In this document: positions 24,556 to 46,067 of the stretch, piece after piece
Position numbering within the stretch: the stretch's first letter is position 1
Layout: each line of letters starts with the position of its first letter
Assembly (NCBI RefSeq): GCF_000568405.1
Contig: NZ_ARZY01000036.1
Span: forward strand, 1 to 47,117
Length of the DNA stretch: 47,117 nucleotides
Origin: Catenovulum agarivorans DS-2
GTDB lineage: Bacteria; Pseudomonadota; Gammaproteobacteria; Enterobacterales; Alteromonadaceae
Reading direction: 5' to 3'
Made by a program: the position numbers and the translations under genes
Notes under the pieces: model-generated
Databases searched by the model: none
What the model saw: the letters and a program-made list of their open reading frames with translations, nothing else
What the model was told of the DNA's origin: nothing

Positions 24556-25350
24556 TTATAAACAAGCGCTTTTTGTGGTTTGCTCGACACTGCGGCAAAT
24601 TGTTGAGAAGTGCTCAGGGTCAAGGCTTGCACCACCTACCAATAAACCATCTATATCGGCTTGTTCAAGCAATAGGTGTGCATTGTTTTTATTGGCGCTG
24701 CCGCCATACATAATGCGAATAGTGTTGGCCGTTTCAGGACCATACATGTCTGTTAATTGTTTGCGTATAAATGCATGAACCTCTTGTGCTATTTCTGGTG
24801 TTGCAGCTTTACCTGTGCCTATTGCCCATACTGGTTCGTATGCAATACACAAGTTTTTGTTGGTTAAATCCATATCTTCAAGCGCTTCACGTAATTGATT
24901 AGACAACACTTGTTCGGTTAAACCTTGCTCGTATTCCTGTTGGCTTTCACCAATGCAATACACAGGTGTTAAATTTGCTTCTAGTGCGCGCGCTATTTTC
25001 ATTTGGCAGCTAATATTGTTTTCGCCAAAAATCTCGCGGCGCTCCGAGTGGCCAATAATGCAATAGCGACAGCCAGCTTCCTTTAACATACGAGCTGATG
25101 TTTCACCGGTAAACGCGCCAGAGTCGTGTTTACTGATGTTTTGTCCACCTACTTTAATTGGCGAGTTGCGTAAAAAGTTAAGCATATCGCGAATATAAAG
25201 GTATGGAGGGCATACTACTACTTCTGCCAAATAAGCGTGCTGAACAAAAGATGACACTGATTTACATAATAAATCTATATCACCATTCAGCTTCCAGTTA
25301 GCCATAATAATTGGTCGGCGTTGATCAATCATATTTTCTTGTGCTTTCAT
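24556..25350 (-). CDS. tpiA: Triose-phosphate isomerase (catabolic-cluster copy)
   Basis: This encodes 264 residues from the ATG at 25350; an ATG at 25332 or TTG at 25371 is possible. Catalytic residues are in place: the lysine in ANWKLNGD (K20), the histidine in CIIGHSERR and the glutamate in AYEPVWAIGTGK. The phosphate-binding YGGSAN and LVGGASLD segments are also present. It interconverts dihydroxyacetone phosphate and glyceraldehyde 3-phosphate. Being at the end of an acid-sugar cluster whose decarboxylase (34491) should make dihydroxyacetone phosphate, it is probably a second, pathway-dedicated copy. The housekeeping copy would be expected elsewhere in the genome. It is separated from the SMP-30 gene by 227 bases and likely has its own promoter. 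Confidence 0.95.
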   Translation of the reverse strand: MKAQENMIDQRRPIIMANWKLNGDIDLLCKSVSSFVQHAYLAEVVVCPPYLYIRDMLNFLRNSPIKVGGQNISKHDSGAFTGETSARMLKEAGCRYCIIGHSERREIFGENNISCQMKIARALEANLTPVYCIGESQQEYEQGLTEQVLSNQLREALEDMDLTNKNLCIAYEPVWAIGTGKAATPEIAQEVHAFIRKQLTDMYGPETANTIRIMYGGSANKNNAHLLLEQADIDGLLVGGASLDPEHFSTICRSVEQTTKSACL

Positions 25351-25577
25351 GTGTTTGGTCTTATGTGTCAATTTATAAAATTTTTTGTTGCTTTATTGTA
25401 CACCTAAATGTTCATGTTTGATTGTAATTGTGTGAATGTGAGGTATTTTGTCTGTTTATGGGGTTTTTGAAAAATTGTCCAATTTGAGGGGTAGCAATTT
25501 TGCTAAAGGAAAGATCAAGTTTGCGTTTGTGTAACGAATTTCGATTAACTAAATTTGTGTTACACAAAAGCACTAGG

Positions 25578-26546
25578 TTAAAAATACCAATGCGCTGGTT
25601 TAACTCCTGTAAATTCTGTGCCTAGCTGGTAAATTTGCTTATCGAGCAAACAGCCTAAAATTATTTTATTTAAGCCAGCCCCAGCAAACGCTAGTGATGA
25701 AATATTTTTAAGCTCAGCTGGATTATTGTCTAAATGTGGTCTGCCCATGGTTAAATTTTGAAAAGCAGCTTCAGCTTTATTAACGTGCTGATCATCGCTT
25801 ATTTCTAACATTAATTCCTGTTCACCGTTTTCTGATACTTTTATAACGCGATTGCTAACTATGCTGGTAACCCAAAAGTTACCTTGGGTATCACGCGTTA
25901 AACCATCAGGGAAGGTGCCTTCAGCAAATTTGCACACAACAGTCTGATTACACAAATCACCATTTGGCGCGATATCAAATTTTAGTAATTCGCGGCTAAA
26001 AGTCGCATTAGCGTATAACTCTGTGCCTTCGGGGTTAACCCAACATTCGTTGGTATAACCTAAACCGTCGGCAACAATTCGGGCACCATGTTGGTCAATT
26101 AAAATAATAAAACCATCATTACAGGTTGGTTTATAGGCTGCAGCGCGCGGTTGGGTGCGGGTGCTTACCGTAATCCAAATACGGTTTTGCTGATCTAAAT
26201 AAACAAAATTGCTGGGTGGCAGTGCTTCGCCGTCTATTTCTAATAAAAATGCCTCTATGCTGTTGTCGCGTTTTAAGCGAAAAATGCCGCCTTTGTCCGC
26301 ACCCAAATGGGCAATTAAAAAACTGCCATCTTTTAACATGGCAAAACCATTGGTTTGTAATAGGCCAAAACCTGGGTATTCACCACCATAAAAAACTTGG
26401 CTGCCGTCTGGGTTTATTTGCGTGATGCCGCCTCTAAAATCGGATACGTATATTTCGCCTTTGGCATTGGTTAATACACATTCAGGGCGGGTGAGTTGTT
26501 GGCCAATTTTTTTAATAGGACTATTAAATTTGTTTATTGTGCTCAT
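25578..26546 (-). CDS. SMP-30/gluconolactonase-family lactonase
   Basis: This is a six-bladed beta-propeller of 322 residues without a signal peptide, so cytoplasmic. The metal ligands of the SMP-30/gluconolactonase family are visible: E22 in RPECV, N113 in PPSNFVY, N166 in YTNECWV and D214 in FPDGLT. It should open a sugar lactone to the aldonic acid. Next to a Gfo/Idh/MocA dehydrogenase it fits an oxidative sugar route (sugar to lactone to acid) feeding the kinase and decarboxylase at 33211-35123. It is separated from that dehydrogenase by a 274-bp region holding a long inverted repeat. The actual lactone is unknown. Confidence 0.88.
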   Translation of the reverse strand: MSTINKFNSPIKKIGQQLTRPECVLTNAKGEIYVSDFRGGITQINPDGSQVFYGGEYPGFGLLQTNGFAMLKDGSFLIAHLGADKGGIFRLKRDNSIEAFLLEIDGEALPPSNFVYLDQQNRIWITVSTRTQPRAAAYKPTCNDGFIILIDQHGARIVADGLGYTNECWVNPEGTELYANATFSRELLKFDIAPNGDLCNQTVVCKFAEGTFPDGLTRDTQGNFWVTSIVSNRVIKVSENGEQELMLEISDDQHVNKAEAAFQNLTMGRPHLDNNPAELKNISSLAFAGAGLNKIILGCLLDKQIYQLGTEFTGVKPAHWYF

Positions 26547-26595
26547 TTTTCGAATTCTTTTTTGGCTTTACATTCCAGCACCGCTAGAGGAATAT

Positions 26596-26776
26596 TTTCG
26601 CAAAAACGTAGCAAGTACGTCCTTGTATACTTCGCTTTTTCATCCATGAAAAAGAAATTTTGCTCTAAATATTCCCCTATCGGTACTTCAATCTACATTT
26701 AAACAAAGTTGTTCAGTGATACTAGGCTCGGTACTTATAGAGCTTACCAGGATGTACTCGCAGCGTTTTTGCGAAA
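26596..26776. repeat. 181-bp palindromic element (MITE- or REP-like)
   Basis: The left arm, starting TTTCGCAAAAACG (26596-26608) and running to about 26622, matches the reverse complement of the right arm (26750-26776) at roughly 22 of 27 positions. Inside lie a perfect 9-bp hairpin, CTTTTTCAT (26635-26643) with ATGAAAAAG (26646-26654), and an AATATTCC copy complementary to GGAATATT just outside the left arm. No ORF is present. It splits the SMP-30 gene from the rest of the operon. Confidence 0.65.
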
Positions 26777-26820
26777 GTGATGAGTCCACAAGCCCTGCAC
26801 CCCAAGCATCAATCGATACC

Positions 26821-27855
26821 TTAACTTAAAGTTACCACGCGTTTATGCTCGTTCGAGTGATAAACCGCATCGACTATTTTAATATTGGTTAAATACTCGG
26901 CTGCGGTATTTTCAAGTGGTGTCTGCTGAAAATAATGTTTCACTATGTGCTCTATGGTTAAAAACACACAGTCACCACCAAATGCTTGGTCTTGCCATGG
27001 GTAAACTATTTGCTGCTCTTCAATTTGGTTAAATGCTCTGTGCCAAATACGCGCTTCACCATCCAAACGCAAACACCCTTGAGTGCCTTCAATCCACATT
27101 TCACCCATAGTGCGTCGGTGATTTGTCGCCGCGTGATCTAAACAGCGATTACCGTCAAATAAGGCACTGATGTTATTCGCCATATCAAAATGAATTACCC
27201 CGCTGTCTTCCCCCTGTATAACTGGGTTACATTTACGCAAACGCGCACTTACTTGAGTAATTTCACCAAACAAAAATCTAAACACATCAATAATATGTAT
27301 CGCGGTTTCGTGTACTAAAAACTTCGGCATTTGTTGAAAATAAGGTTGGCGTGCAAGGTAGGCATCATCACCTTGACCATCACCAGGGCGTAGCTTAAAA
27401 CTAACGTTGAGCACATCACCCACAAGGTTTTTCGACAATAATTCAGCTAATTTTCGATACCAAGGCATAAATCTAAAGTTTTCATGAATAATAATGCTTT
27501 TGTCTTTTTGTTTGGCATATTCAACCAAGCTTTCAGCTTGCGCGAGCGACTCACAAAATGGCTTTTGGCAAATTACGTTGGCACCTAAATCGATTGCTTG
27601 GCGCACATTGGTGTCATGCGTGACAGGTGGGGTGATTACATCTATCAAATCAGGTTGTAAATGTGCGATATCGGTTATGCTTGATGCAACATTTGCAATG
27701 CCATATTCATCTGCAACACGTTTAGCATTGTCGATATTACGGTTCACTACAGCAACAACGTCTATTGGAAAAACTTTGCTTAGACGCTGCCATGCTTGAT
27801 AGTGAAATTGAGCAAAATAGCCAGTGCCAACACAAGCAACTTTTAGTCTATTCAT
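26821..27855 (-). CDS. Gfo/Idh/MocA-family NAD(P)-dependent oxidoreductase
   Basis: This encodes 344 residues. The N-terminal Rossmann fold has CVGTGYFAQFH. The usual EKP cofactor motif appears as QKPF at about residue 97-100, with glutamine for glutamate. The C-terminal alpha/beta domain has VHETAIHIIDVFRFLFG, carrying the likely catalytic histidine. These enzymes oxidise or reduce cyclic sugars and inositols, some at C3. It lies 3 bases after tctA in the minus-strand operon. With the SMP-30 lactonase downstream it could oxidise a free sugar at C1 to the lactone, or reduce a 3-keto sugar made in the periplasm. Sequence alone does not decide between these. Confidence 0.9.
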   Translation of the reverse strand: MNRLKVACVGTGYFAQFHYQAWQRLSKVFPIDVVAVVNRNIDNAKRVADEYGIANVASSITDIAHLQPDLIDVITPPVTHDTNVRQAIDLGANVICQKPFCESLAQAESLVEYAKQKDKSIIIHENFRFMPWYRKLAELLSKNLVGDVLNVSFKLRPGDGQGDDAYLARQPYFQQMPKFLVHETAIHIIDVFRFLFGEITQVSARLRKCNPVIQGEDSGVIHFDMANNISALFDGNRCLDHAATNHRRTMGEMWIEGTQGCLRLDGEARIWHRAFNQIEEQQIVYPWQDQAFGGDCVFLTIEHIVKHYFQQTPLENTAAEYLTNIKIVDAVYHSNEHKRVVTLS

Positions 27856-27858
27856 AAA

Positions 27859-29391
27859 TTAAGCTTCCTCTTTATTTGGTTGGCTTTTACAAGCGCTACA
27901 GCATTTGCGCAGCAAAGATTTAAACCAAGGCATTTGCTGAAAAATAACCACTAACATAATTAAAATTAAGATGAGTGAAACAGGGCGCGACAACATAGGC
28001 AATAAATCACCTTCGGTTGTTAATAATGCGCGGCGCAGGTTTTCATCCGCCATTGGCCCCAAAATAAGGCCAATTATCATTGGCGATATAGGGTATTTCA
28101 GTTCAATCATCCAATAAGCAATAATGCCAATGGGTACCATTAAAAATAAATTAAATACATTTAATCCCAGCGCATAACTGCCAAGCACACACAAAATAGC
28201 AACAAACGGCATAAATAAGGGCGCTGGCACTTTTAAAAGTTTAACCACTTGTTTGGCCAGCAACATGCCATTACAAAACATAGCGATGGATGCCAACACT
28301 AAAATTGCGGTTATTTCTAATAAAAAATCTGGTTTTTCGACTGGTAAAGTCGGGCCAGGATTAATGCCGTGCAGCATTAACGCACCGAGTAACATAGCTG
28401 CTGGTGCACTGCCTGGAATGCCTAAAGTGAGTAGCGGAATAAGCGCGCCACCTATACACGCATTGTTAGCCGTTTCAGAAGCGATTAAGCCAGATTTATC
28501 ACCTTTACCAAATTTAGATTTGTCTTTGGCTGCACCTTTAGCTGCGCCATAAGACACCCAGCCTGCAATATCCTCACCGATACCAGGTACGGCACCAATG
28601 CCAACTCCAATGCTGGCAGAGCGTGCGATGTTTTTACCGTTTTTACGAATTTCAGAAAGCTCAGGCACAACCGAATCAAATTCTTTTGCTTGGGCGAGTT
28701 TTTTGCGCTCGGCTAACACTTTGATTATTTGTGGAATACCAAATGCACCAATTAATACCGGCACTATGTCTAAACCACTATCGAGTTGTGGCATATCAAA
28801 AGTAAAGCGAGGGAAAAACTGCAAAGTATCGCGGCCAATGCAGGCTAAAAACAACCCAAAAAAGCCTGCAATCCAACCTTTAAGTGCATCCCCTTCGCTG
28901 GTGAGTGTGCCACTAATTAAAATGCCAAACAGCGCCAATAAAAAGAACTCAAATGAAGTAAATTGCAAAGCGACACTGGCAATTAGTGGGGCCATTAGTA
29001 CTAAAATTAATAAGCCAAATAAAGTGCCAATGGTCGATGCTGTGGTAGTTAAGCCTAAAGCTTTGCCACCTTCACCTTTGCTGGCAAGTGGATAACCTTC
29101 CATTGCTGTTGCCGCGGCCGCGGCAGTGCCTGGAATATTAATTAAAATGCTTGGGTAGGAGCCACCATAAATAGCGCCAACGTATAATCCCAATAAAGCC
29201 AGCAGCGCTGAGTTAACATCTAACCCATAGGTTAGTGTGGTTAATAAGGCGACCCCTAAAGTTGCGGTTAACCCAGGCATCGCACCAAAAATAATACCTA
29301 AAAAGCTCGCCCCAAAAACAATTAATAAATTAACCGGATCGGTTGCTAAACCCCATAACACAGTAAAAAAGTGCTGAAATTGTTCAATCAT
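27859..29391 (-). CDS. tctA: Tripartite tricarboxylate-type transporter, large permease TctA
   Basis: This is a polytopic inner-membrane protein of 510 residues. The N-terminal region contains GAMPGLTATLGVALL and later GGSYPSILINIPGT, both signatures of TctA/DUF112. A repeated PGIGEDIAGW and LGIPGSAPAAMLLGAL pair marks the second half of the inverted-repeat fold. Roughly a dozen transmembrane segments are visible. With TctB and TctC it forms a sodium- or proton-driven importer for carboxylated solutes such as citrate, tartrate, aldonates or disaccharide acids. The gene is 1 base from tctB, indicating tight coupling. Substrate is inferred from the neighbouring acid-sugar enzymes. Confidence 0.95.
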   Translation of the reverse strand: MIEQFQHFFTVLWGLATDPVNLLIVFGASFLGIIFGAMPGLTATLGVALLTTLTYGLDVNSALLALLGLYVGAIYGGSYPSILINIPGTAAAAATAMEGYPLASKGEGGKALGLTTTASTIGTLFGLLILVLMAPLIASVALQFTSFEFFLLALFGILISGTLTSEGDALKGWIAGFFGLFLACIGRDTLQFFPRFTFDMPQLDSGLDIVPVLIGAFGIPQIIKVLAERKKLAQAKEFDSVVPELSEIRKNGKNIARSASIGVGIGAVPGIGEDIAGWVSYGAAKGAAKDKSKFGKGDKSGLIASETANNACIGGALIPLLTLGIPGSAPAAMLLGALMLHGINPGPTLPVEKPDFLLEITAILVLASIAMFCNGMLLAKQVVKLLKVPAPLFMPFVAILCVLGSYALGLNVFNLFLMVPIGIIAYWMIELKYPISPMIIGLILGPMADENLRRALLTTEGDLLPMLSRPVSLILILIMLVVIFQQMPWFKSLLRKCCSACKSQPNKEEA

Positions 29392-29392
29392 C

Positions 29393-30157
29393 TTAAAACC
29401 CCAACACTTGATAATAAAAATAGTCGGTTAACAGTAAAACACTGCTTTCGCTGGGCATTGGTACCAACAATAAATACTTAAAAATAAGCACAACTATGAT
29501 TGGCAACAACACGCAGGCAAATAACAAGATGCGTATTTGTTTATGCAATTGATTGGCTGTTAGATAACGTTCAGTTTTATACAAAACAAAACCGAGTGCG
29601 GGAAAGCTAATTAAGTCGCCCATATATAAACGATTGCTGTCTGACTCAAATGCAACAAATAAATTGAGTAAAAACAGCAACGCCGCAACAAAACAGAATA
29701 CCAGTAACACTTGTTCATTGAGCTTTTTCGCATCAGCTAAATAAAAGCGGCAAGTTATTGTGAGTTGAAACAAAATAGTTGCTATTACAAAGTCACTGTT
29801 GGGGATCAGCCCATAAACATAACCGGCTAACATCAGTACCAATAAAAATTTATCGATAGACTGTTGCGAGAATTTGCGGCTTGGTGCTGATGCTAGGCTG
29901 AATAAACTCTGCTGTTGGCTTTTTGCTGTTTTGTATAACTTAAGTAATTGAATACTCGCCAGCAATAAAATGCAGCTACCAACTACTAAAGGGAATAACG
30001 CAGGTGAAACGTACCAAACGTTTTCTAACCCACCTTGGCTAGCCGTTAATGGGTAAGTTAAGCTTTCAGCCAACATAGCCAAAGCAAAAATTACCAAAGC
30101 AAGGCTAGTAAAGGCTTCGCGACGATAATTAATCGAATCTGTCTTTGAAATTTGCAT
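29393..30157 (-). CDS. tctB: Tripartite tricarboxylate-type transporter, small subunit TctB (enlarged)
   Basis: This encodes 254 residues, much longer than the usual TctB of about 150-170. A first transmembrane helix (about 14-32) precedes a periplasmic stretch with WYVSPALFPLVVG, the TctB signature. Three more helices follow through about residue 165. An additional C-terminal part (about 170-254) adds at least one strong helix and a tail unlike classical TctB. Its position between tctC (3-base gap) and tctA (1-base gap) makes the assignment firm despite low sequence conservation in this family. Confidence 0.88.
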   Translation of the reverse strand: MQISKTDSINYRREAFTSLALVIFALAMLAESLTYPLTASQGGLENVWYVSPALFPLVVGSCILLLASIQLLKLYKTAKSQQQSLFSLASAPSRKFSQQSIDKFLLVLMLAGYVYGLIPNSDFVIATILFQLTITCRFYLADAKKLNEQVLLVFCFVAALLFLLNLFVAFESDSNRLYMGDLISFPALGFVLYKTERYLTANQLHKQIRILLFACVLLPIIVVLIFKYLLLVPMPSESSVLLLTDYFYYQVLGF

Positions 30158-30160
30158 ATA

Positions 30161-31216
30161 TCATCCTTGTGCATTTATTTGGTTAATGCCAAATTTAGCA
30201 GGCGAGTGTTTAGCTGCGCCTAACTCTTCAAGTGTCCAACCAAATAACGATTCTAACTTGCTAAACACTTCTGAGGCTTGTGCACCTGACTTGCCAGACA
30301 ATACAAAGTAATTATCATCCGCCCACTGTTTTACTTTGTCACTTTGCATTGCTTGGTTAAATGCTTGAGTGAGTTTGATTTTTATGCTGTCGGGTGTGTC
30401 AGCATTGACGGCAAAACCAATTACTTGAGTAATTGGCAAATGTTGTTTTAATGCAGGGTAAACATCTAAAGCTGTTGGAATATCTCCGATGTCGTCAGCA
30501 CTGAAAGCTTCATTGGTTAACATAGCCAGCGGTCTGAGTTGACCACTTTTAATTAACTGTTGTTGCTCAGCCATTGAGGTGATAACAATATCTACTTCTT
30601 CAGTTACCACTGCTGTTTGTGACGGTGCCGAGCCTGGGTAGGGTACAAACTTAAACTCAGCTTGGGTGCCTTTAGCAAAAGCCAATAAATTTAAATGATG
30701 CAGAGAGCCTGAACCAGCAGCAGCTGCTTTAACTTTATTTGGATTAGCAAGTGCGTATTCAACTAATTGTTCAACGCTGGTAAAAGGTGAATTTGCGCTC
30801 ACGGAAATGAGATCTGGCGAGCCACCAATAATAAATGGATACCAAGTATCCATACGCTCTGCCCAACCGCCCATAACAGCTGCAGTGACACACGACTCAC
30901 TTAAACCCACTAGCGTGTAACCATCGCTGCGTCTTTGATTTACATAACTTAAACCTAAAGAGCCTGCGACGCCACCAGGTTTATTGGTTACGTTAATGTC
31001 TGCACCTAACGCTTTGGCCAGCTCTGCTGAAATTATGCGGTTGGCAACATCTGTACCGCCGCCAGCAGACCAAACGACCACATTAGTTAATGGCCGACGC
31101 GGATAACTATCAGCATCGGTCGAAATTGTTTTTACGCCGACTAAAATGCTGATGATTACCCCACATATCAGCATTAAAGTTATCGCGTTTGTATATTTTT
31201 TGCTTGAGTTGTTCAC
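30161..31216 (-). CDS. tctC: Tripartite tricarboxylate-type transporter, solute-binding protein TctC
   Basis: This encodes 351 residues from a GTG at 31216 preceded by AAAGGG. An N-terminal hydrophobic helix (about 11-29) is a signal peptide or membrane anchor. The Bug/TctC fold follows, with VVVWSAGGGTDVANR at the first ligand loop and NKPGGVAGSLGL, both typical of carboxylate-binding members. FVPYPGSAPSQTAVV is the second-domain loop. It captures the acid substrate in the periplasm for TctAB. Two hairpins lie in the 91-bp gap between the upstream dehydrogenase gene and this start and may raise its level over its neighbours, as is common for binding-protein genes. Confidence 0.93.
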   Translation of the reverse strand: MNNSSKKYTNAITLMLICGVIISILVGVKTISTDADSYPRRPLTNVVVWSAGGGTDVANRIISAELAKALGADINVTNKPGGVAGSLGLSYVNQRRSDGYTLVGLSESCVTAAVMGGWAERMDTWYPFIIGGSPDLISVSANSPFTSVEQLVEYALANPNKVKAAAAGSGSLHHLNLLAFAKGTQAEFKFVPYPGSAPSQTAVVTEEVDIVITSMAEQQQLIKSGQLRPLAMLTNEAFSADDIGDIPTALDVYPALKQHLPITQVIGFAVNADTPDSIKIKLTQAFNQAMQSDKVKQWADDNYFVLSGKSGAQASEVFSKLESLFGWTLEELGAAKHSPAKFGINQINAQG

Positions 31217-31257
31217 TTTGCTATTTCCCTTTTGTGTATTTTTAAGTTGGGATGTTT

Positions 31258-31303
31258 AACCTGAGTTCAGGTTACTTTTTTTGGCGGGGTTTACCCCGCC
31301 AAA
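31258..31303 (-). other. Intercistronic hairpins ahead of tctC
   Basis: TTTGGCGGGG (31280-31289) pairs with CCCCGCCAAA (31294-31303), a 10-bp stem with a 4-base loop. AACCTGA (31258-31264) pairs with TCAGGTT (31267-31273). On the minus strand the strong stem is followed by As, not Ts, so it is better explained as an RNA processing or stability element than as a terminator. Confidence 0.6.
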
Positions 31304-31307
31304 TTTG

Positions 31308-32420
31308 TTAGCAAGTAATACTGTTATTTTGTAATTGTTTTAATTTGGCAAACACAGTGTCATAAATTGCTTGTGTGCCTGACGTGCCACCAAACTCAAA
31401 TGGTAAAATTTCACCACTTTCGTAGGCAGCTTCTACTGCTTTGGTAATGTCTTGTGCGGCTTTTACTGCGCCTTGATTGTCAAACTTGTCGCCTAGCCAA
31501 TCAAGCATCATTGCCGCAGATAAAAACATAGCGGAAGGATTCGCTTTACCTTGCCCCATAATATCTGGTGCACTGCCATGGCAAGGTTGGAATACCGCAT
31601 GGTCATCACCAATATCTGCCGAAGGTGCCATGCCCATGCCACCCATTAAACCTGCGCCTAAGTCAGATAAAATGTCACCGAACATGTTCTCAGTTACCAT
31701 TACATCAAACATCCAAGGTTGGCGAACCAATTGTAATGCGGCTGCATCTACATAAATGTGGTTGGCTTCAACGTCTGTATAGTTTTGAGCTACTTGATCA
31801 AATATTTGACGGAAGAAAAAGAACGAACCTAAAACGTTAGCTTTATCAACACAAGTCACTGCGCCTGAATAACCCAATTGTTTGCGGCGTTGACCCATTT
31901 TAAACGCGAAGTTAAACAATCGTTCGCTACCTTTACGTGTGATAACTTGGGTATCTTTTGCAACATCGTCACCTTCTTTTTCAAAGCGATTACGTGACGC
32001 AAATAAACCTTCGGTCGACTCGCGAATTAATACAAAATCTAACTCATGTCCACGTTTATCCGCCAGTGGTAAAGGCAAACCTTTTAGCGTTTTTACAGGG
32101 CGAACACCTGCGTATAAATCTAAGGTTTCACGCAGCTCTAACTGTGGGGCAATTTCACGACCATCAGGATAACGAATAGACGGCATACCCATACAAGCTA
32201 ATAATATGGCATCCGACGCTTTGGCTGTCGCCATAGAATCTTCAGGCAGGGCAACACCGTGCTCTTGGTAGTAAGCTGCGCCAGCTTCTAAATTAGTAAA
32301 ATTACATTCTACGTCATATTTTTCGCACGCCGCTTTCACTAATTCTAGGGTGATTGGCGTTACTTCAACACCAATTCCGTCACCCGGAAATACCGCAATA
32401 TCGAAAGTCGATTTAGTCAT
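31308..32420 (-). CDS. Isopropylmalate/isocitrate/tartrate-type beta-decarboxylating dehydrogenase
   Basis: This encodes 370 residues from the ATG at 32420, which has GAGG at ideal spacing; the in-frame TTG at 32432 is less likely. The N-terminal FPGDGIGVEV, the RESTEGLFASRN loop and GDILSDLGAGLMGGMGMAP with its metal-binding aspartates identify the family, which uses NAD(P) and Mg2+ or Mn2+ to oxidise 2-hydroxyacids, usually with loss of a beta-carboxyl. The CHGSAPD block lies in the cofactor region. It is the second gene of the GntR-led operon, next to TctABC. Leucine synthesis is unlikely here. A C4 or C5 sugar acid, tartrate or malate-like substrate is plausible. PdxA-type dehydrogenases fill a similar role in known threonate pathways. 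Confidence 0.9.
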   Translation of the reverse strand: MTKSTFDIAVFPGDGIGVEVTPITLELVKAACEKYDVECNFTNLEAGAAYYQEHGVALPEDSMATAKASDAILLACMGMPSIRYPDGREIAPQLELRETLDLYAGVRPVKTLKGLPLPLADKRGHELDFVLIRESTEGLFASRNRFEKEGDDVAKDTQVITRKGSERLFNFAFKMGQRRKQLGYSGAVTCVDKANVLGSFFFFRQIFDQVAQNYTDVEANHIYVDAAALQLVRQPWMFDVMVTENMFGDILSDLGAGLMGGMGMAPSADIGDDHAVFQPCHGSAPDIMGQGKANPSAMFLSAAMMLDWLGDKFDNQGAVKAAQDITKAVEAAYESGEILPFEFGGTSGTQAIYDTVFAKLKQLQNNSITC

Positions 32421-32438
32421 AATGAGCCTCAAAAATAG

Positions 32439-33119
32439 TTATAGCTGCACAAACCTATAGGTCTCCAGCAGGTTTAATAAGGTGTGTTTACCTTTAATTC
32501 GGTGGTTTCTATGTATTTCAGCGGCAAGGTTGGCATTGCCTGCTTTTATTGCGTTGACTAGGTCAATGTGATCTTGAGTTGACCCAGTTGGTTTCGGCCG
32601 CAAGTGCAAAGTGAAGTAGCGCACTCTGTGCGCTTGACCCCAAAATTGCAGCACAACCTGTTTTAATCTTTGATTGCCAGTTAAATTAACTAAAGCTAAA
32701 TGAAAAGCTTCGTCGGCTTCTGCCCATGCTTCTAATTGGTCATTTTCTAATGCTTGTTCCATCGCTTCAGTTGGTGCAGCGAGAGATTTATAGTCTTCTT
32801 CGGTAAGCTGTTTTTCTGCGAGTATGCGTGCGGCTTCAGATTCTAGCGCAGTTAAAATGTCGTAAATTTCGGCCATATCTTCTACCGAAATAGGTTTAAC
32901 TCTAATGCCATGCCTAGGTTTAATTTCAATCAAACCTTCTTTTTCTAACCGAACGCAAGCCTCGCGTACTGGGGTACGGCTGATGCCAAAACGCTCAACC
33001 AGTGCTTTTTCTAAAACCTGCTCACCTGCTTTGAACTGGTTATTTAAAATTTCTTCGCGAATGGCTCGGTAAGCAATTTCAGCTAAAGGTAAATTTTCTG
33101 AAGTTGTGTCTTTTTGCAT
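32439..33119 (-). CDS. GntR-family (FCD) transcriptional regulator
   Basis: This encodes 226 residues starting at the ATG at 33119; an in-frame ATG at 33152 lies inside the candidate operator and would add 11 residues. The N-terminal winged helix (about 8-75) has FGISRTPVREACVRLEKEGL. The helical FCD effector domain (about 90-220) carries the metal-binding histidine residues in EADEAFHLALV and near the C-terminus. It heads the minus-strand acid-sugar operon, 18 bases from the dehydrogenase, and is divergent from the kinase gene. A perfect palindrome at 33140-33155 is its probable binding site. The effector is probably a pathway acid or its phosphate. Confidence 0.92.
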   Translation of the reverse strand: MQKDTTSENLPLAEIAYRAIREEILNNQFKAGEQVLEKALVERFGISRTPVREACVRLEKEGLIEIKPRHGIRVKPISVEDMAEIYDILTALESEAARILAEKQLTEEDYKSLAAPTEAMEQALENDQLEAWAEADEAFHLALVNLTGNQRLKQVVLQFWGQAHRVRYFTLHLRPKPTGSTQDHIDLVNAIKAGNANLAAEIHRNHRIKGKHTLLNLLETYRFVQL

Positions 33120-33139
33120 TTTTTGTTTTATCGTGTACG

Positions 33140-33155
33140 TTAATGTATACATTAA
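33140..33155. promoter_or_regulatory. Candidate GntR operator
   Basis: TTAATGTATACATTAA is a perfect 16-bp palindrome centred on GTATAC, the type of core many FCD-subfamily GntR repressors bind. It sits 21 bases upstream of the gntR start and 55 bases upstream of the divergent kinase gene, able to control both directions. Confidence 0.65.
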
Positions 33156-33210
33156 TTTTTAGCCAGTTTATACTGACTTTAATCAAGGTTTCAACTGAAA
33201 TTGTTTTAAT

Positions 33211-34494
33211 ATGACAGTAAATGAAAAGAAAAAACCAATACTCGGTGCAATTGCCGACGACTTTACTGGCGCGTCAGACCTAGCGAGTTTTTTGCTAAAA
33301 GGTGGCTTAAAAGTTGTGCAAATAAATGGGGTGCCAAGCCAAGATATTGAATTAGCTGATGATGTTGATGCAATTGTAGTTGCACTTAAATCACGCACTT
33401 GTGCAATTAACCAAGCGATTAGCGACTCAACCGCCAGCCTTGCTTGGTTACAGCAACAAGGTTGCCAAAAATTTTATTTTAAATATTGCTCTACATTTGA
33501 TTCGACCAGCGAAGGCAATATTGGCCCGGTTACCCAAGCTTTATTAGCCAAACTTGAAAGTGAACAGACAATATTTTGCCCAGCGCTGCCAGTTAACGGC
33601 CGCACAGTTTACCAAGGGCATTTATTTGTGTTTGAGCAGTTGTTGTCAGACAGCCCACTGCGTAACCACCCATTAACGCCCATGTTAGACAGCAATTTAA
33701 TTCGGTTATTACAACCACAATTAGCTGAAGAAAATGCCCAGCGTTTGCAGCTAATGAACTTAGCTAGTCTACACAAACGACCCGCTTACCAAAAAGTAGA
33801 GTCGGCATATTGGGTAGTTGACTGTGTAAATGACAACGACTTGGAAAAAATCGCCCAACTGTTTGCAACCAACCCAGATTACCCATTATTAACCGGTGGC
33901 TCTGGTTTAGGTGAATATATGGCGCGCGAATATGTTAAAGCGGGCTGGCTACAACAAAGCAACACTAGCCACAAAATTACTAAAAACGATGGCAAAACCC
34001 TTATTTTAGCCGGCAGTTGTTCGCAAGCCACACGCAAACAAATTGATGTTGCACGTACACAAGTACCAACACTTGCACTAGATGTTGATGCCATAGCGAC
34101 AGGCCAACTAGACCCAGCAACTGTATTAGGTTGGATAAACATGCAACACAGTGAAGCAGTGGTTTTATATACCTCTGCCGAGCCAGAAAAAGTATTGGCT
34201 GCACAAGCTCAATTTGGCAAAGAGCAAGTCAGCGAAAAAATTGAACAGTGTTTAACTCAAATTGCCAAGCTGGCACGCGAAAACAACATTTTAAATATAG
34301 TGGTCGCGGGTGGAGAGACTTCAGGCGCAATTGTCAGCGGACTTAACTTAACCGCATTTACCGTTGGCCAAAGCATTTGCCCAGGCGTACCTGTAATGCA
34401 AAGCCACCATGCAGACGGTTTAATTGTTGCGCTTAAATCTGGCAACTTTGGTGATGAGAATTTCTTTTTAACTGCGTTGGAGACAATACAATGA
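33211..34494 (+). CDS. otnK: Four-carbon acid-sugar kinase (DUF1537, OtnK-like)
   Basis: This encodes 427 residues. The N-terminal sugar-binding domain (about 8-240) opens with LGAIADDFTGASDLASFLLK, the DUF1537 signature. TGGSGLGEYMA and LAGSCSQATRKQI follow at the domain junction, and the C-terminal nucleotide-binding domain ends with VVAGGETSGAIVSGL. Family members phosphorylate 3-oxo-tetronate, threonate or erythronate at C4. The stop overlaps the start of the OtnC-like gene (ATGA), the usual partner in 3-oxo-tetronate breakdown, favouring OtnK over threonate kinase. No good ribosome binding site is seen ahead of the ATG at 33211. It is divergent from gntR. Exact substrate is inferred from context. 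Confidence 0.88.
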   Translation: MTVNEKKKPILGAIADDFTGASDLASFLLKGGLKVVQINGVPSQDIELADDVDAIVVALKSRTCAINQAISDSTASLAWLQQQGCQKFYFKYCSTFDSTSEGNIGPVTQALLAKLESEQTIFCPALPVNGRTVYQGHLFVFEQLLSDSPLRNHPLTPMLDSNLIRLLQPQLAEENAQRLQLMNLASLHKRPAYQKVESAYWVVDCVNDNDLEKIAQLFATNPDYPLLTGGSGLGEYMAREYVKAGWLQQSNTSHKITKNDGKTLILAGSCSQATRKQIDVARTQVPTLALDVDAIATGQLDPATVLGWINMQHSEAVVLYTSAEPEKVLAAQAQFGKEQVSEKIEQCLTQIAKLARENNILNIVVAGGETSGAIVSGLNLTAFTVGQSICPGVPVMQSHHADGLIVALKSGNFGDENFFLTALETIQ

Positions 34495-35123
34495 CCCCAT
34501 TAGCGCTAGCTCGTGAACAAATGGTGACACTGGGTAAATCTATGTTTGATAGAGGTTTAACCCCAGGTGCCTCAGCAAATATAAGTATAAAAGTGGAAGA
34601 AGGTTTTTTAATGACCCCAACAGGCTCATGCATTGGCTTTTTAGATGCTGAGACTTTAAGTTTGTTGGATGAAAACGGCAACTTAATCAGTGGTGATAAA
34701 CCTTCAAAAGAATTTATTTTACACAAAGCTATGTACGACCAACGCCCAGATGCTGGTGCAGTTATTCACCTGCATAGCACTTGGTCAACTGCGCTTTCAT
34801 GCAAAGCAGATTTAAATCCGGATGATGTTATTCCGCCATTAACCCCATATTTAATTATGCGTTTAGGTCGTATTGGTTTAGTCCCTTATTTTCCACCAGG
34901 GGCGGCTGAATTAGGTGCTGCAGTGCGCGAAAAGGCAGCTGCACACGCAGGTATTTTAATGGCTAACCATGGGCCAATAGTGTCCGGTAAAGATTTAATT
35001 ACCGCCATGTTTAACATGGAAGAGCTAGAAGAAAGTGCCAAATTAATGCTGTTGTTAGAAGGCAAAAATGTAAACCCGTTGGCTGAGTCTGATCGCCAAG
35101 AATTATTAGCCCGATTCGGCTAA
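34491..35123 (+). CDS. otnC: OtnC-like 3-oxo-tetronate 4-phosphate decarboxylase (class II aldolase)
   Basis: This is a single-domain class II aldolase/adducin protein of 210 residues. E74 in PSKEFILHK is the catalytic acid/base; H93 and H95 in IHLHSTW and H160 in ANHGP are the zinc ligands. LTPGASANISIK near residue 23 forms the phosphate loop region. The known reaction of the orthologue is decarboxylation of 3-oxo-tetronate 4-phosphate to dihydroxyacetone phosphate and CO2, which matches the tpiA gene in the same cluster. Overlap with the kinase gene by 4 bases shows coupling. Unlike the two-domain relative at 21072 its active site is complete. Confidence 0.88.
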   Translation: MTPLALAREQMVTLGKSMFDRGLTPGASANISIKVEEGFLMTPTGSCIGFLDAETLSLLDENGNLISGDKPSKEFILHKAMYDQRPDAGAVIHLHSTWSTALSCKADLNPDDVIPPLTPYLIMRLGRIGLVPYFPPGAAELGAAVREKAAAHAGILMANHGPIVSGKDLITAMFNMEELEESAKLMLLLEGKNVNPLAESDRQELLARFG

Positions 35124-35149
35124 AGCAAGGAAAAAGATAGGAAAACATA

Positions 35150-35434
35150 ATGTACGTAGTCACAGTCGATTTTATAATTAAACCAGCACACCTAGCTGAA
35201 TTTTTACCAGCCATGATGGAAAATGCGAAAACTTCATTAGAAGTGGAACCTGAGTGCACATACTTTGACGTATGCCAAAGTGAAAGCAAAAGTAACCACA
35301 TATTTTTGTACGAAATTTACAACTCAGAAAAAGCCTTTCAAGACCACCTAGCCAGTGAGCACTTTAAGCTGTTTAGTCAAACCGTTGAAAACTGGGTTGA
35401 ATCAAAAGCAGTGAATATATTCAACCGCTGTTAA
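35150..35434 (+). CDS. ABM-domain (YgiN/LsrG-like) small protein
   Basis: This encodes 94 residues forming a dimeric alpha/beta-barrel ABM domain: VTVDFIIKPAHLAEF at the start, ECTYFDVCQSE in the middle and YEIYNSEKAFQDHLASEHF as the conserved second half with histidines. The family contains monooxygenases but also isomerases such as LsrG, which acts on a phosphorylated carbohydrate. It is the third gene of the kinase-decarboxylase operon (26-base gap). Since a recognised OtnI-type isomerase is missing here, an isomerase role on the acid sugar is an attractive inference. A hairpin at 35453-35473 ends the operon. Confidence 0.82.
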   Translation: MYVVTVDFIIKPAHLAEFLPAMMENAKTSLEVEPECTYFDVCQSESKSNHIFLYEIYNSEKAFQDHLASEHFKLFSQTVENWVESKAVNIFNRC

Positions 35435-41444: not shown

Positions 41445-44400
41445 ATGGCACATAAAACTATATCGCAAAAACCTGCCTTCAAATTGTCACTGGTAGCAGC
41501 TGCTATTACAGTTACTGGCGCGGTTACTCCGTTGCAAGCATTGGCTGAAGGCAACAGCAAAACTGAAAGTGAGGTTGAAACAATTGAAATTCGTGGTGCA
41601 CGCGGCAGTTTAATTAGCGCACAGGCAATAAAGCGCGACGGTGAAACCGTAATGGATGTTATTTCAGCAAAAGACATTGGCTCTTTACCAGACCGAAGTG
41701 TTTTAGAGGCAGTCGTAAGACTGCCTGGTGTATCAATAGAGCGGTTTGCCGGTGCAAACGATCCTGATCATTTTAGTGTTGAAGGCAGTGGGGTTGTTAT
41801 TCGTGGCTTAACCCATACCCGCAGCGAATTTAATGGTAGAGACACATTTACTGCAGATTCTGGCCGAGGGTTAAGTTTTCAGGACGTGCCACCAGAGTTA
41901 ATGGGCGGCGTGGAATTATATAAAAACCAATCAGCGGATATGATTGAAGGCGGTATTGCTGGCACGGTAAATTTGGTCACACGTAAACCTTTTGACAGCA
42001 AGGATAGGGTATTAGCTTTTACAGCAGACGCGACATACTCAGACTTTATTGAAGAAACAACACCCACGTATTCGGGGCTTTATAGTGACATTTTTACTTT
42101 AGATGCAGGTCGTTTGGGTATTTTATTAAATTACTCTAACTCCAACTTAAAAGCTCAATCAGACGGTACTCAAATTGGGAAATATTATCAACAAAATAGA
42201 CAGGTAGGTGGTAAAGATGTATTTGTACCTGAAACCACTCGATTAACCCGAAAAAAAGATGATAGAGACCGAGAGGGTTTAGCGGCATCTTTACAGTGGG
42301 AAAATACCGACCGTACTTTATTGATTACGGGTCAGTATATTCGTTCTGATTCGTCAAATGCATGGACTGAAAACGCCATTGAAATGGCCGACGACGCTGT
42401 AATTAAGGACTTAATACCTGCTGAAGGCACGGAGTTTGAGTATTCTGACCAGGGGTTATTTGAGTCTGGGTTAATCACGTCTACAGCCGGCTGGCGTGGC
42501 AATGGTGAACCAGAACGTTTACCAGGCGGTATTTTTGGCCCACAACATGCCATGATTACCCGACACAGAGATACTGACTCAGTTGTTGAGGATATTGGGG
42601 TAAACATTAAATATCGACCTAACGATTCTTGGTCTTTTAATTTAGATCTGCAACAGGTAGACGCTGAAACCACAGTAAATGATTATTCATTAATGGGGGC
42701 TACCCGCGCGGTTGTAGGCATAAAACAGCAAGGTGTAGATACACCCAAGATATCTTTATTTGATCCTGCTTATCAACCAGACGCACAAAGCGATGTCACC
42801 GATCATTTTACTAATCCACACAATTATTTTTGGCGCAGCGCCATGGAACATATTTCAGACAATGAAGGTAAAGAAAAAGCCTTTGCGGCTGACGCACAAT
42901 ACACCTTTGAAGATGGCCTAATTGCTTCAATTAAAGTGGGTGCTCGTTATGCCAAACGTGAACAAGTTACCCGTCAATCTAAATACAACTGGGGTTGGCT
43001 GTCTGAAGCCTGGGCTGGCAATGGTAATGCTTGGTTTGATGCCGAAGGTGACGAACTAGGCGCAAACTTGAATAAAGACTATCAGCAAGTTACTTTTGAC
43101 GACTTTGCTAAAGGTGATGTGTTAAACACCAGTGGTGGCAATTCATTTTTGTTCCCAACCGAAGAAATCGTAAAGGATTATGCTAATTGGCAAGATAGAT
43201 TTTCTAGCTTATCACCCGGTTGGAATCCGCTAGCGGCAAGAGACCGTGCTGTTGGTCACTTTATACCGAATGAAATAAATGACACAAAAGAACAAAATTC
43301 AGCCGTTTACATTAAAGCTAATTTTGACGGTGAAATGGCGGGTATGCCGTTTAGTGGTAATTTTGGTGTGCGTTACGTTAAAATTGAAAACCAAACTGAA
43401 GGTTTTGTAACCTTTCCTGATACTGTTGGTAAAACCAATGACGACGGCACTGCTGATTTAACTGATCCTGATTGGCATTTACCAGCTGATCAAGCCGCAT
43501 TCGGTAATGGTGCATTTGTGCCTCAAACGGGTACATCTGAATATACCAATGTGTTACCAAGCTTCAACTTAAAAGTTAATTTGGCAGATGACTTAATTTT
43601 ACGATTTGGCTTTTCAGAAGCCATTGCACTGCCTGATTTAGGTAACCTTAGAAACTATGTTGAGATATCCGAAGAAGACCAAATAATCACCTATCAAGGT
43701 GAAGGGGACAACCGCACTATTGTATCTGCACCTTATAGTCGTTATACCGCAAAATCGGGTAACCCCAATTTAAAACCTATGGAAGCATATAACTATGACC
43801 TTGCACTTGAGTGGTATTTTGCAGAAGGCGTGGGGTCATTAACAACATCGTTATTTTACAAAGACCTGAGTAATTATTTTATCAATAACACAGTTGAGCG
43901 TGAATTTGCCAACAATGGTGCGACGCAAAAAGTGCTAGTTGCAGGCGCGACCAATGGAGATGAGGGCACTGTGCGCGGCGTTGAATTTGCCTATCAGCAA
44001 TTTTTCGATTTTTTACCAGCTAGCTTAAGTGGCTTAGGCATGCAATTTAACTACACATACATTGAAGAGGAAGGCTCACCAAATTCTAATTTAGCTCCCG
44101 ATAAACCAAATTCAGCAGAAGGCGAAGGCGTTGCATATGACAATTTGCCACTCGAAGGATTGTCTAAAAATAACTACAACCTAGTCGCTATGTACGAAAA
44201 ATACGGCGTATCGGCTCGACTGGCTTATAACTGGCGCTCAGATTACCTGCTAACGACTAAAGATGTCATCACTGAGTTACCTATCTATAACGAGGCAAGC
44301 GGGCAACTAGACGGCTCAATTTTTTATAGCTTGAACGACAACATCCAAATTGGTTTGCAGGGTACCAACCTAACCGACGAAGTAACCCGAACTTCGATGC

Positions 44401-44486
44401 AGGTGGATCAAGCTGGCAATAGAGCAGGGCGTTCTTGGTTTGTAAATGACCGAAGAATCAGTTTTGTTGTAAAAGGCAATTTTTAA
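41445..44486 (+). CDS. TonB-dependent receptor (Xanthomonas/Caulobacter-type, glycan uptake)
   Basis: This outer-membrane protein of 1013 residues has a signal peptide of about 35 residues ending ALAEG. A TonB-box-like ETIEIRGARGSLISAQ at about 45-60 precedes the plug domain (DRSVLEAVVRLPGVSIERF, VIRGL, GGIAGTVNLVTRKPFD). The large barrel follows to the C-terminus, which ends RRISFVVKGNF as expected for a final strand. The length and plug pattern match the TIGR01782 subfamily used for oligosaccharide import. No SusD partner is present, as is normal in Proteobacteria. The RBS is AAAGGG. It is followed by a strong terminator and the halogenase-like gene. LacI-style operators lie upstream. Confidence 0.94.
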   Translation: MAHKTISQKPAFKLSLVAAAITVTGAVTPLQALAEGNSKTESEVETIEIRGARGSLISAQAIKRDGETVMDVISAKDIGSLPDRSVLEAVVRLPGVSIERFAGANDPDHFSVEGSGVVIRGLTHTRSEFNGRDTFTADSGRGLSFQDVPPELMGGVELYKNQSADMIEGGIAGTVNLVTRKPFDSKDRVLAFTADATYSDFIEETTPTYSGLYSDIFTLDAGRLGILLNYSNSNLKAQSDGTQIGKYYQQNRQVGGKDVFVPETTRLTRKKDDRDREGLAASLQWENTDRTLLITGQYIRSDSSNAWTENAIEMADDAVIKDLIPAEGTEFEYSDQGLFESGLITSTAGWRGNGEPERLPGGIFGPQHAMITRHRDTDSVVEDIGVNIKYRPNDSWSFNLDLQQVDAETTVNDYSLMGATRAVVGIKQQGVDTPKISLFDPAYQPDAQSDVTDHFTNPHNYFWRSAMEHISDNEGKEKAFAADAQYTFEDGLIASIKVGARYAKREQVTRQSKYNWGWLSEAWAGNGNAWFDAEGDELGANLNKDYQQVTFDDFAKGDVLNTSGGNSFLFPTEEIVKDYANWQDRFSSLSPGWNPLAARDRAVGHFIPNEINDTKEQNSAVYIKANFDGEMAGMPFSGNFGVRYVKIENQTEGFVTFPDTVGKTNDDGTADLTDPDWHLPADQAAFGNGAFVPQTGTSEYTNVLPSFNLKVNLADDLILRFGFSEAIALPDLGNLRNYVEISEEDQIITYQGEGDNRTIVSAPYSRYTAKSGNPNLKPMEAYNYDLALEWYFAEGVGSLTTSLFYKDLSNYFINNTVEREFANNGATQKVLVAGATNGDEGTVRGVEFAYQQFFDFLPASLSGLGMQFNYTYIEEEGSPNSNLAPDKPNSAEGEGVAYDNLPLEGLSKNNYNLVAMYEKYGVSARLAYNWRSDYLLTTKDVITELPIYNEASGQLDGSIFYSLNDNIQIGLQGTNLTDEVTRTSMQVDQAGNRAGRSWFVNDRRISFVVKGNF

Positions 44487-44493
44487 TTCAACT

Positions 44494-44518
44494 GGGCCTG
44501 TAAACAGGCCCTTTTTTT
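44494..44518 (+). terminator. Strong intrinsic terminator after TonB receptor
   Basis: GGGCCTG (44494-44500), loop TAAA, CAGGCCC (44505-44511), then seven Ts (44512-44518). It stands only 13 bases before the halogenase-like start codon. Confidence 0.92.
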
Positions 44519-44531
44519 CAAGGCGACCAAT

Positions 44532-46067
44532 ATGCAACAAACAGCACCTAAAGCAATACAACACATTGCAATTGTTGGCGGGGGCTCTGCGGGGTGGATG
44601 ACTGCGGCAACATTAGCAAAAGTATTACCCAAAGAATTTTGCAAGGTAACTTTAATTGAATCACCACAGATAAAAACAGTGTCGGTTGGTGAAGCAAGCA
44701 TACCGCAAATACAATTGTTTAATCGAATTTTAGAAATTGATGAAAACGAATTTTTACAAAGAACAAAAGCCACTTTTAAATTAGGTATAGAGTTTCATAA
44801 CTTTGCGCGAGAGGGAGATTGTTATTTTCATCCATTTGGTAGTTACGGCACCAATATGGACGCCTTGCCATTTCATCATTTTTGGCTGAAACAATCTCAA
44901 ACGGGAAATACCCTAGACATTGAAAATTACTCTTTGGCGGCACTTGCTGCGCGTCAAAATAAATTTCAGCGGCCTACAAATAGCGGCAATTCGCCATTAT
45001 CTAGTATTAATTATGCTTTTCATTTTGATGCAAAATTATATGCAGATTTTTTGCAGGACTATGCGGTTAAGCGTGGGGTTCAACACATCGAGGCCAACGT
45101 AACCAATGTTAGTTTAAAAGCTGACAACGGCTTTATTGACAGCTTATTTTTAAATGATGGACAAAAAATAACGGCAGATCTGTATATAGACTGTAGTGGC
45201 TTTAAAGGTTTATTAATTGAACAAGTATTAAAAACTGGCTTTGAAGATTGGAGTCACTACTTGCCATGTGATAGTGCGGTTGCCCTAGCTTGTAAAAACA
45301 CTCTTGGGTTAACCCCCTACACGCAAGCAATCGCACATCAATCTGGTTGGCGTTGGCGTATCCCCCTGCAACACAGAGTGGGCAATGGTTTAGTATACGC
45401 AAGTGAATTTATGCAACACCAGCAAGCAAGCAAATTGCTACAAGAGGAAATAGAAGGCCAAGCGCTGGCGGATATTAACTCATTAAAATGGACAACCGGC
45501 ATGCGCAACAAAAGCTGGAATAAAAACTGTATTGCAATTGGATTGTCAGCAGGCTTTTTAGAGCCGATGGAATCAACTGGCTTACACCTAATTCAATCGG
45601 CCATTGCTAAATTGATGACATTATTTCCAACCAAAGAGTTTGCTCAATGTGACATAGATAGCTACAACGCACAAACACGCAAAGAATTTGTCAATATTCG
45701 AGACTTTTTAATTCTGCATTACAAAGCAACTGAACGTGAAGATAGTGAATTTTGGCGCTACTGTAAAAATATGCAAGTGCCAGATTCATTGCATGAAAAA
45801 CTAACAATGTATCAAGAAACAGGGCGCATATTTAGGCAAGACAATGAGCTATTTAATGAAACATCTTGGTTAGCAGTTATGCATGGACAAGGCATTAAAG
45901 CCAACCGCTATCATCCGCTAGTAGACAGGCTCGAGCCAAGCGAAATATCACGTCGGCTTCAACATATAGAAGATGTGATAAAACGCTCGGTTGCAACTAT
46001 GCCAGATCATAGCCATTTCATTAACCAGTGTTTTTCCAATAATTTTTGCGATATTCAGTCGGGGTAA
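44532..46067 (+). CDS. Tryptophan-halogenase-like flavoprotein
   Basis: This encodes 511 residues with the RBS AAGG. The flavin-binding VGGGSAGWMTA is at about residues 15-25. The halogenase WxWxIP motif appears as WRWRIPL in the middle, and a lysine in TFKLG (K83) corresponds to the catalytic lysine region of PrnA. SAGFLEPMESTGLHLIQ is also conserved. Genes of this family regularly follow TonB receptors in carbohydrate loci of Alteromonadales and Caulobacterales, where their true substrate is unknown. Tryptophan halogenation is therefore not assumed. It sits right behind a terminator, so expression probably depends on read-through or a hidden promoter. Its last 47 bases overlap the convergent AraC gene. 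Confidence 0.88.
   Translation: MQQTAPKAIQHIAIVGGGSAGWMTAATLAKVLPKEFCKVTLIESPQIKTVSVGEASIPQIQLFNRILEIDENEFLQRTKATFKLGIEFHNFAREGDCYFHPFGSYGTNMDALPFHHFWLKQSQTGNTLDIENYSLAALAARQNKFQRPTNSGNSPLSSINYAFHFDAKLYADFLQDYAVKRGVQHIEANVTNVSLKADNGFIDSLFLNDGQKITADLYIDCSGFKGLLIEQVLKTGFEDWSHYLPCDSAVALACKNTLGLTPYTQAIAHQSGWRWRIPLQHRVGNGLVYASEFMQHQQASKLLQEEIEGQALADINSLKWTTGMRNKSWNKNCIAIGLSAGFLEPMESTGLHLIQSAIAKLMTLFPTKEFAQCDIDSYNAQTRKEFVNIRDFLILHYKATEREDSEFWRYCKNMQVPDSLHEKLTMYQETGRIFRQDNELFNETSWLAVMHGQGIKANRYHPLVDRLEPSEISRRLQHIEDVIKRSVATMPDHSHFINQCFSNNFCDIQSG

Follow-up and report, generated by a model that had tools for sequence, protein, structure and literature searches.

The window, by which is meant the whole 47,117-nucleotide stretch of Catenovulum agarivorans DS-2 DNA that was analysed, carries a cluster of sugar-acid genes arranged in two divergent arms (Table 1). 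Like the OtnK/OtnC four-carbon acid-sugar pathways, with their DUF1537 kinases, it encodes a kinase and a decarboxylase, both of which pass the NCBIfam cut-offs. Unlike those pathways, it adds an isocitrate/isopropylmalate-type dehydrogenase, a Gfo/Idh enzyme, TctABC, and a regulator of the FCD family. The kinase/decarboxylase pair recurs with the dehydrogenase, Gfo/Idh, ABM, and TctABC genes (here at 25578-35434) in many gamma- and alphaproteobacterial loci. The recurrence of this set, isocitrate/isopropylmalate-family dehydrogenase included, suggests a variant of the pathway for four-carbon acids. For the erythronate pathway of Brucella, the available part of the source names a DeoR-family regulator. 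Two neighbors may be recorded in passing. A triosephosphate isomerase gene lies beside the cluster (24556-25371), in a genome with 5 TIM-family matches, and at 41445-46067 a gene for a TonB-dependent receptor precedes one of the tryptophan-halogenase family.

Table 1. Features in and around the divergent promoter, in window coordinates
Feature	Position	Strand	Basis
Predicted operator, perfect 16-bp palindrome	33140..33155	none	letters; conservation in orthologous loci
Core ATGTATACAT	33143..33152	none	identical to crystallised Atu1419 operator
gntR short form, 226 aa, FCD-family regulator, predicted VanR-type fold	32439..33119	-	Pfam, AlphaFold, Foldseek
Alternative upstream ATG of gntR, probably unused	33150..33152	-	ORF list; comparison with relatives
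Possible gntR promoter, TTGAAA-16-TATAAA	33167..33194	-	read by eye
Possible kinase promoter, TATACA-17-TATACT	33146..33174	+	scan; first hexamer inside palindrome
otnK, 3-oxo-tetronate kinase family (DUF1537 type)	33211..34494	+	NF043035, 496 bits against cut-off 350
otnC, 3-oxo-tetronate 4-phosphate decarboxylase family	34491..35123	+	NF043034, 283 bits against cut-off 250
ABM-domain protein, kinase arm gene 3	35150..35434	+	domain match; present in most related loci
Isocitrate/isopropylmalate dehydrogenase-family enzyme, next after gntR	31308..32420	-	family matches
TctC, TctB, TctA transporter genes, other arm	27859..31216	-	Pfam; operon predicted from spacing
Gfo/Idh oxidoreductase and SMP-30 family gene, other arm	25578..27855	-	Pfam; operon inferred

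Between the short start of gntR at 33119 on the minus strand and that of the kinase gene at 33211 on the plus strand lie 91 bp. Within this gap stands TTAATGTATACATTAA, 20 bp from the gntR start and 55 bp from the kinase start; the perfect 16-bp palindrome that the preliminary description had placed between these genes at 33140-33155 is therefore confirmed. Its 16 letters occur exactly once in the genome (4.57 Mb, 143 contigs). The genome has two copies of the inner 12-mer AATGTATACATT, the second of which lies inside a 1390-aa ORF and was rejected as a further site. The exact core was found nowhere else in the window, and a search between about 32000 and 34500 for a second core with up to two mismatches returned none.

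Perfect palindromes of this length are, of course, not rare in such DNA, so the letters alone are weak evidence. The window holds two of at least 16 bp, against a mean of 1.24 in 100 order-2 Markov copies, and 78 of 20,000 mononucleotide shuffles of the 91-bp gap contain one. The other perfect 16-bp palindrome in the window, at 29110-29125, is GC-rich and lies within the tctA ORF. The bare palindrome is unremarkable; the case for an operator rests on position and conservation.

The regulator and its solved relatives

With a winged helix-turn-helix domain and an FCD domain both above curated cut-offs (Pfam on the 237-aa form: GntR 63.6 bits against 27, FCD 91.2 bits against 24.3), the regulator belongs to the FCD family of the GntR superfamily. 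Its AlphaFold model, made with an alignment of 25 sequences, has a mean pLDDT of 92 and a predicted C-terminal domain of six helices (residues 79 to 220). In the available text of the paper on Atu1419, the VanR group of FCD proteins is distinguished by having six, not seven, C-terminal helices (PMC7797058); on its predicted fold, the regulator would belong to this group.

Atu1419, from Agrobacterium fabrum, is described in the same text as a repressor of the FCD family, VanR group, and as the first member of that group to be solved with DNA (PMC7797058). Its PDB entries are 6z74, 6za0, 6za3, 6za7, and 6zab. The protein was co-crystallised with ATGTATACAT, which it also bound in gel shifts, and its Arg45 contacts a guanine (PMC7797058). 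The identical 10-bp core stands in the promoter considered here. Glu34, Arg45, Thr46, and Arg49 of Atu1419 align with Glu37, Arg48, Thr49, and Arg52 of the short GntR, so that four of the five DNA-contact residues compared are kept; the fifth, Gly66, is replaced by Arg69. At these five positions in turn, the residue in the window's protein is found in 25, 25, 25, 23, and 25 of 25 sequences.

A similar likeness extends to the C-terminal domain, which has six helices in both proteins (by prediction here). The metal ligands of Atu1419, as given in the portion of the paper available, are Asn137, His141, His192, and His214, and three histidines with an Asn or Asp are described there as the metal site of TM0439-type regulators (PMC7797058). 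In the window's GntR, Asp136, His140, His184, and His206 are invariant in the 25 sequences, share the spacing N/D-x3-H and H-x21-H, and are likely, by that spacing, to be the counterparts of these ligands, with Asp in place of Asn137. TM0439 and other metal-binding regulators of the VanR group (3fms, 3sxy) match the window's GntR in sequence and in fold.

Atu1419 is a useful comparison without being the nearest one. The two proteins are only about 23-25% identical over the fold, and by sequence similarity Atu1419 is sixth among solved structures. In a Foldseek search against the PDB, a Brucella GntR structure takes ranks 1-2 by E-value and Atu1419 chains take ranks 3-10, with TM-scores of 0.62-0.71 against 0.82 for 9isw; 4p9f also scores higher than Atu1419. 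The biology differs as well. According to the available text, the effector of Atu1419 is methylene-tetrahydrofolate and its targets are hydroxycinnamate genes, whereas the window's GntR adjoins sugar-acid genes; Atu1419 also forms a tetramer and has more than one site in each region, whereas the window shows one exact site (PMC7797058). In the literature, the Atu1419 paper was the only GntR title among the matches listed for ATGTATACAT with "regulator," and it alone was found for GntR with TGTATACA.

Conservation of the palindrome

A full-length regulator sharing at least 60% identity with that of the window was found in ten genomes: the window's own, C. agarivorans YM01 (a near duplicate of the window), C. 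maritimum, G224, G346, G423, G163, G161, G183, and Colwellia maritima. In all ten, the promoter region of gntR or of the pathway genes contains the exact core. In C. maritimum the core is upstream of gntR, and no kinase gene was found within the locus. Four of the ten, G161, G183, G163, and Colwellia maritima (L074), have gntR and the dehydrogenase gene 7-19 kb apart, and the core is still upstream of the dehydrogenase gene. The first three of these have it between the kinase and dehydrogenase genes; in L074 the kinase is not within the locus. Farther out, the core is present in G049 (regulator 51% identical), and the exact core was not found in G009 (47% identical).

The preliminary description had held that one site would control both arms at once. 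This is supported by the three genomes just named, because the site stays between kinase and dehydrogenase where gntR is elsewhere.

These counts were set against several controls. Among the 160 two-GC 10-bp palindromes, the core is the commonest in the loci of nine relatives, with 15 copies; the next has 6, and the median is 0. A search of 295 genomes of the family found the 14-mer TAATGTATACATTA in 7 of the 9 that have an orthologue against 9 of 286 others, an enrichment with a one-sided Fisher p of about 1e-8 that ignores kinship and is too small because related genomes are not independent. The reversed control pattern occurs in 0 of 9 and 8 of 286. The two misses among the nine are G085 (C. 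maritimum, with one outer base changed) and G009. The 286 include 20 genomes with regulator matches of 25-33%, one of which, G223, has the 14-mer; within the 3-kb loci around the 9 other places of the 14-mer, no relative of the window's regulator was found. Also counted among the 286, and outside both the ten and the nine, is G262, where a regulator fragment (L106; a 97-residue match in a 108-codon frame) is seen without a dehydrogenase match at 1e-60 and without a 14-mer or core site. That locus looks decayed.

More distant loci were examined with a matrix made from 15 sites in relatives, all picked for the exact core and with the window excluded. The test set was 14 loci of 15-20 kb with regulators 38-47% identical; L084 to L089 (weak or partial relatives), L106 (the fragment), and L107 (the same locus as L070) stood outside it. 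In 13 of the 14, the best match of the whole locus fell in the gap upstream of pathway genes, mostly divergent, where gaps were drawn from tblastn edges and, for L101 to L104, were picked after the sites had been seen (L101 is not divergent, and the outer edge in L102 and L103 is arbitrary). In L076 to L083 the gap is divergent and precedes the dehydrogenase gene; L075 has a divergent TctC-SGL gap, and L098 and L104 are divergent. Of 1000 permuted palindromic matrices, with a mean of 1.1, the best reached 12 loci and none reached 13. For L075 to L083 the real matrix scored 9 of 9, a figure that at least one permuted matrix also reached. In L098, with a regulator 47% identical and no exact core, the best gap site ranks second in the locus. 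Several distant sites are imperfect and weak, scoring as low as 5.2 against 26.2 for a perfect site. Recognition has therefore probably drifted in these loci, as judged from their sequences.

These results bear on three other accounts of the palindrome. That it is an AT-rich accident without function draws on the frequency already given, about 1.24 perfect palindromes of at least 16 bp expected per window. It was rejected, and its probability is close to nil: conservation exceeds that of control palindromes and permuted matrices, and the site is retained where gntR is elsewhere.

The second account has translation of a 237-aa GntR begin in the palindrome, which would be conserved for the sake of the protein. 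Here, the alternative start reported in the preliminary description does exist: a minus-strand ATG at 33152-33150, inside the palindrome, opens a 237-aa gntR ORF in the window, and in C. maritimum, alone among the relatives tested, the palindrome's ATG is likewise in frame and open. In the other five of six relatives tested, either a stop follows it or it is not in frame. YM01, whose regulator is 97% identical, has an in-frame TAA after it, L096 also has an in-frame stop, and in L097, L099, and L100 (the last two near duplicates) the frame is wrong. The palindrome is also retained where gntR is not adjacent. The idea of a translation start was rejected on this comparison and is exceedingly improbable. 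The 226-aa GntR is supported because the ATG is closed or out of frame in five of six relatives; thus, the shorter protein proposed earlier stands on the comparison of relatives, and the overlap of ATG with operator does not serve as an argument in itself.

The third account gives the site to a different regulator of the FCD type, with its gene elsewhere in the genome. The genome has 14 FCD matches, and the motif is common to Atu1419, in the text available, and probably to a regulator 29% identical to the window's in G049. Against this, the motif tracks the orthologues of the window's regulator across genomes, and in the upstream stretches examined the core precedes the window's gntR and 0 of the 13 other FCD genes. 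This account is very unlikely. The G049 case is itself of note. At L148:7856-7865 the same palindrome stands about 20 bp before the gene for that different FCD-like regulator, which adjoins a gene starting, by eye, like a TonB receptor. The core is thus not exclusive to the window's regulator, and the word is probably common to several FCD proteins, to judge by such sequences.

Proposed mode of control at the divergent promoter

The reading best matched to this evidence, to which we give a probability of roughly 0.87, is that the adjacent GntR regulator, of the FCD family and VanR group, has its operator in the palindrome and would repress both arms when substrate is absent. The GntR operator suggested by the preliminary description is supported on two grounds: the core matches the Atu1419 operator, as reported in the text available, letter for letter, and it is conserved along with the orthologous regulator. 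We infer the binding, repression rather than activation, the promoter positions, the operon extents, the metal, and the effector.

A mechanism may be sketched. A GntR dimer would bind the palindrome through its winged helix-turn-helix domains, one half-site per subunit. Without substrate, the bound protein would most likely block both arms at the 91-bp divergent promoter. On the side of the kinase arm, otnK-otnC-ABM, it would cover the -35 region; on that of the gntR-dehydrogenase-tctCBA-Gfo-SGL arm, it would lie over the bases transcribed first. With those first bases covered, gntR would therefore also repress itself. Autoregulation, claimed earlier, is likely because the site is 20 bp before the gntR start, and is deduced from that position. 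A sugar acid or a pathway intermediate is probably the effector that would release GntR, probably held through a metal ion in the C-terminal domain.

The promoters in this sketch are approximate. The gntR promoter read by eye would start its transcript near 33160, with the palindrome at about +5 to +20. A promoter scan paired the first hexamer of that promoter, TTGAAA, with a different second hexamer, and it gave 2 promoter-like sites against 1.7 expected by chance, which is no better than chance. The placing of the palindrome relative to promoters thus draws on consensus matches no better than chance. The word TATAC at 33169-33173, part of the second hexamer of the possible kinase promoter, is invariant in 6 aligned loci, among which are two pairs of near duplicates, and was not seen at the matching place in L096 and L097.

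Might the regulator that binds this operator activate both arms, or one? The FCD protein CitO is described, in the part of its source available, as the activator of citrate genes, and the site overlaps a possible kinase -35, where an activator could act too. (GTATAC is present once in the CitO paper, in a primer.) The closest operator match, Atu1419, is nonetheless a repressor in the text available (PMC7797058), and the position of the site, with a possible -10, read by eye, on one side and the start codon of gntR on the other, suits repression. Activation is therefore unlikely, and repression of both arms is most simply read from the arrangement.

Breadth of the proposed regulon

The preliminary description had proposed looking for the same palindrome near tpiA. 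No site was found upstream of the gene in the 4 TIM-family loci examined, of 5 genes found, and tpiA was rejected as a regulon member through the palindrome. The window's TIM locus and L143 lack a site; L144 and L145 have sites with one mismatch downstream of the gene.

Elsewhere the site has other company. In L072 (5417-8638) and L105 (10926-14161), where gntR and the pathway genes are apart, sites near gntR are also upstream of a long gene that diverges from it; they have the core in L072 and a one-mismatch form in L105. The L072 gene is a TonB-dependent receptor by Pfam, and the L105 gene begins alike. In both loci another exact site precedes a gene that encodes about 278 aa and, by eye, begins in a signal-like way; in L072 this gene has no Pfam match. 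In L073, L074, and L105, gntR is preceded by paired sites 22-23 bp apart, most with one mismatch, and in L099 and L100 it has an exact site on either side. Cooperative or looped binding would therefore be possible in such relatives.

We offer tentatively, as somewhat short of an even chance, the view that the operator marks an FCD regulon of a four-carbon acid-sugar pathway with an isocitrate/isopropylmalate-family dehydrogenase, from Catenovulum to Rhodobacteraceae. Two qualifiers belong to this view and share its tentativeness: some relatives add a TonB-dependent receptor and further genes, and some have paired or gntR-flanking sites. Among the matches listed in the literature searched, none describes such an acid-sugar FCD regulon.

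As a kind of switch, the element is ordinary and known; sequence comparison gives good support to its being the local operator of an FCD protein, set in a divergent promoter of catabolic genes. Its value lies in giving a concrete, easily tested predicted binding site for a VanR-group regulator, tied to a sugar-acid kinase/decarboxylase pathway. The core, in turn, is a search motif for the acid-sugar regulon, and it may reveal where marine bacteria get these acids.
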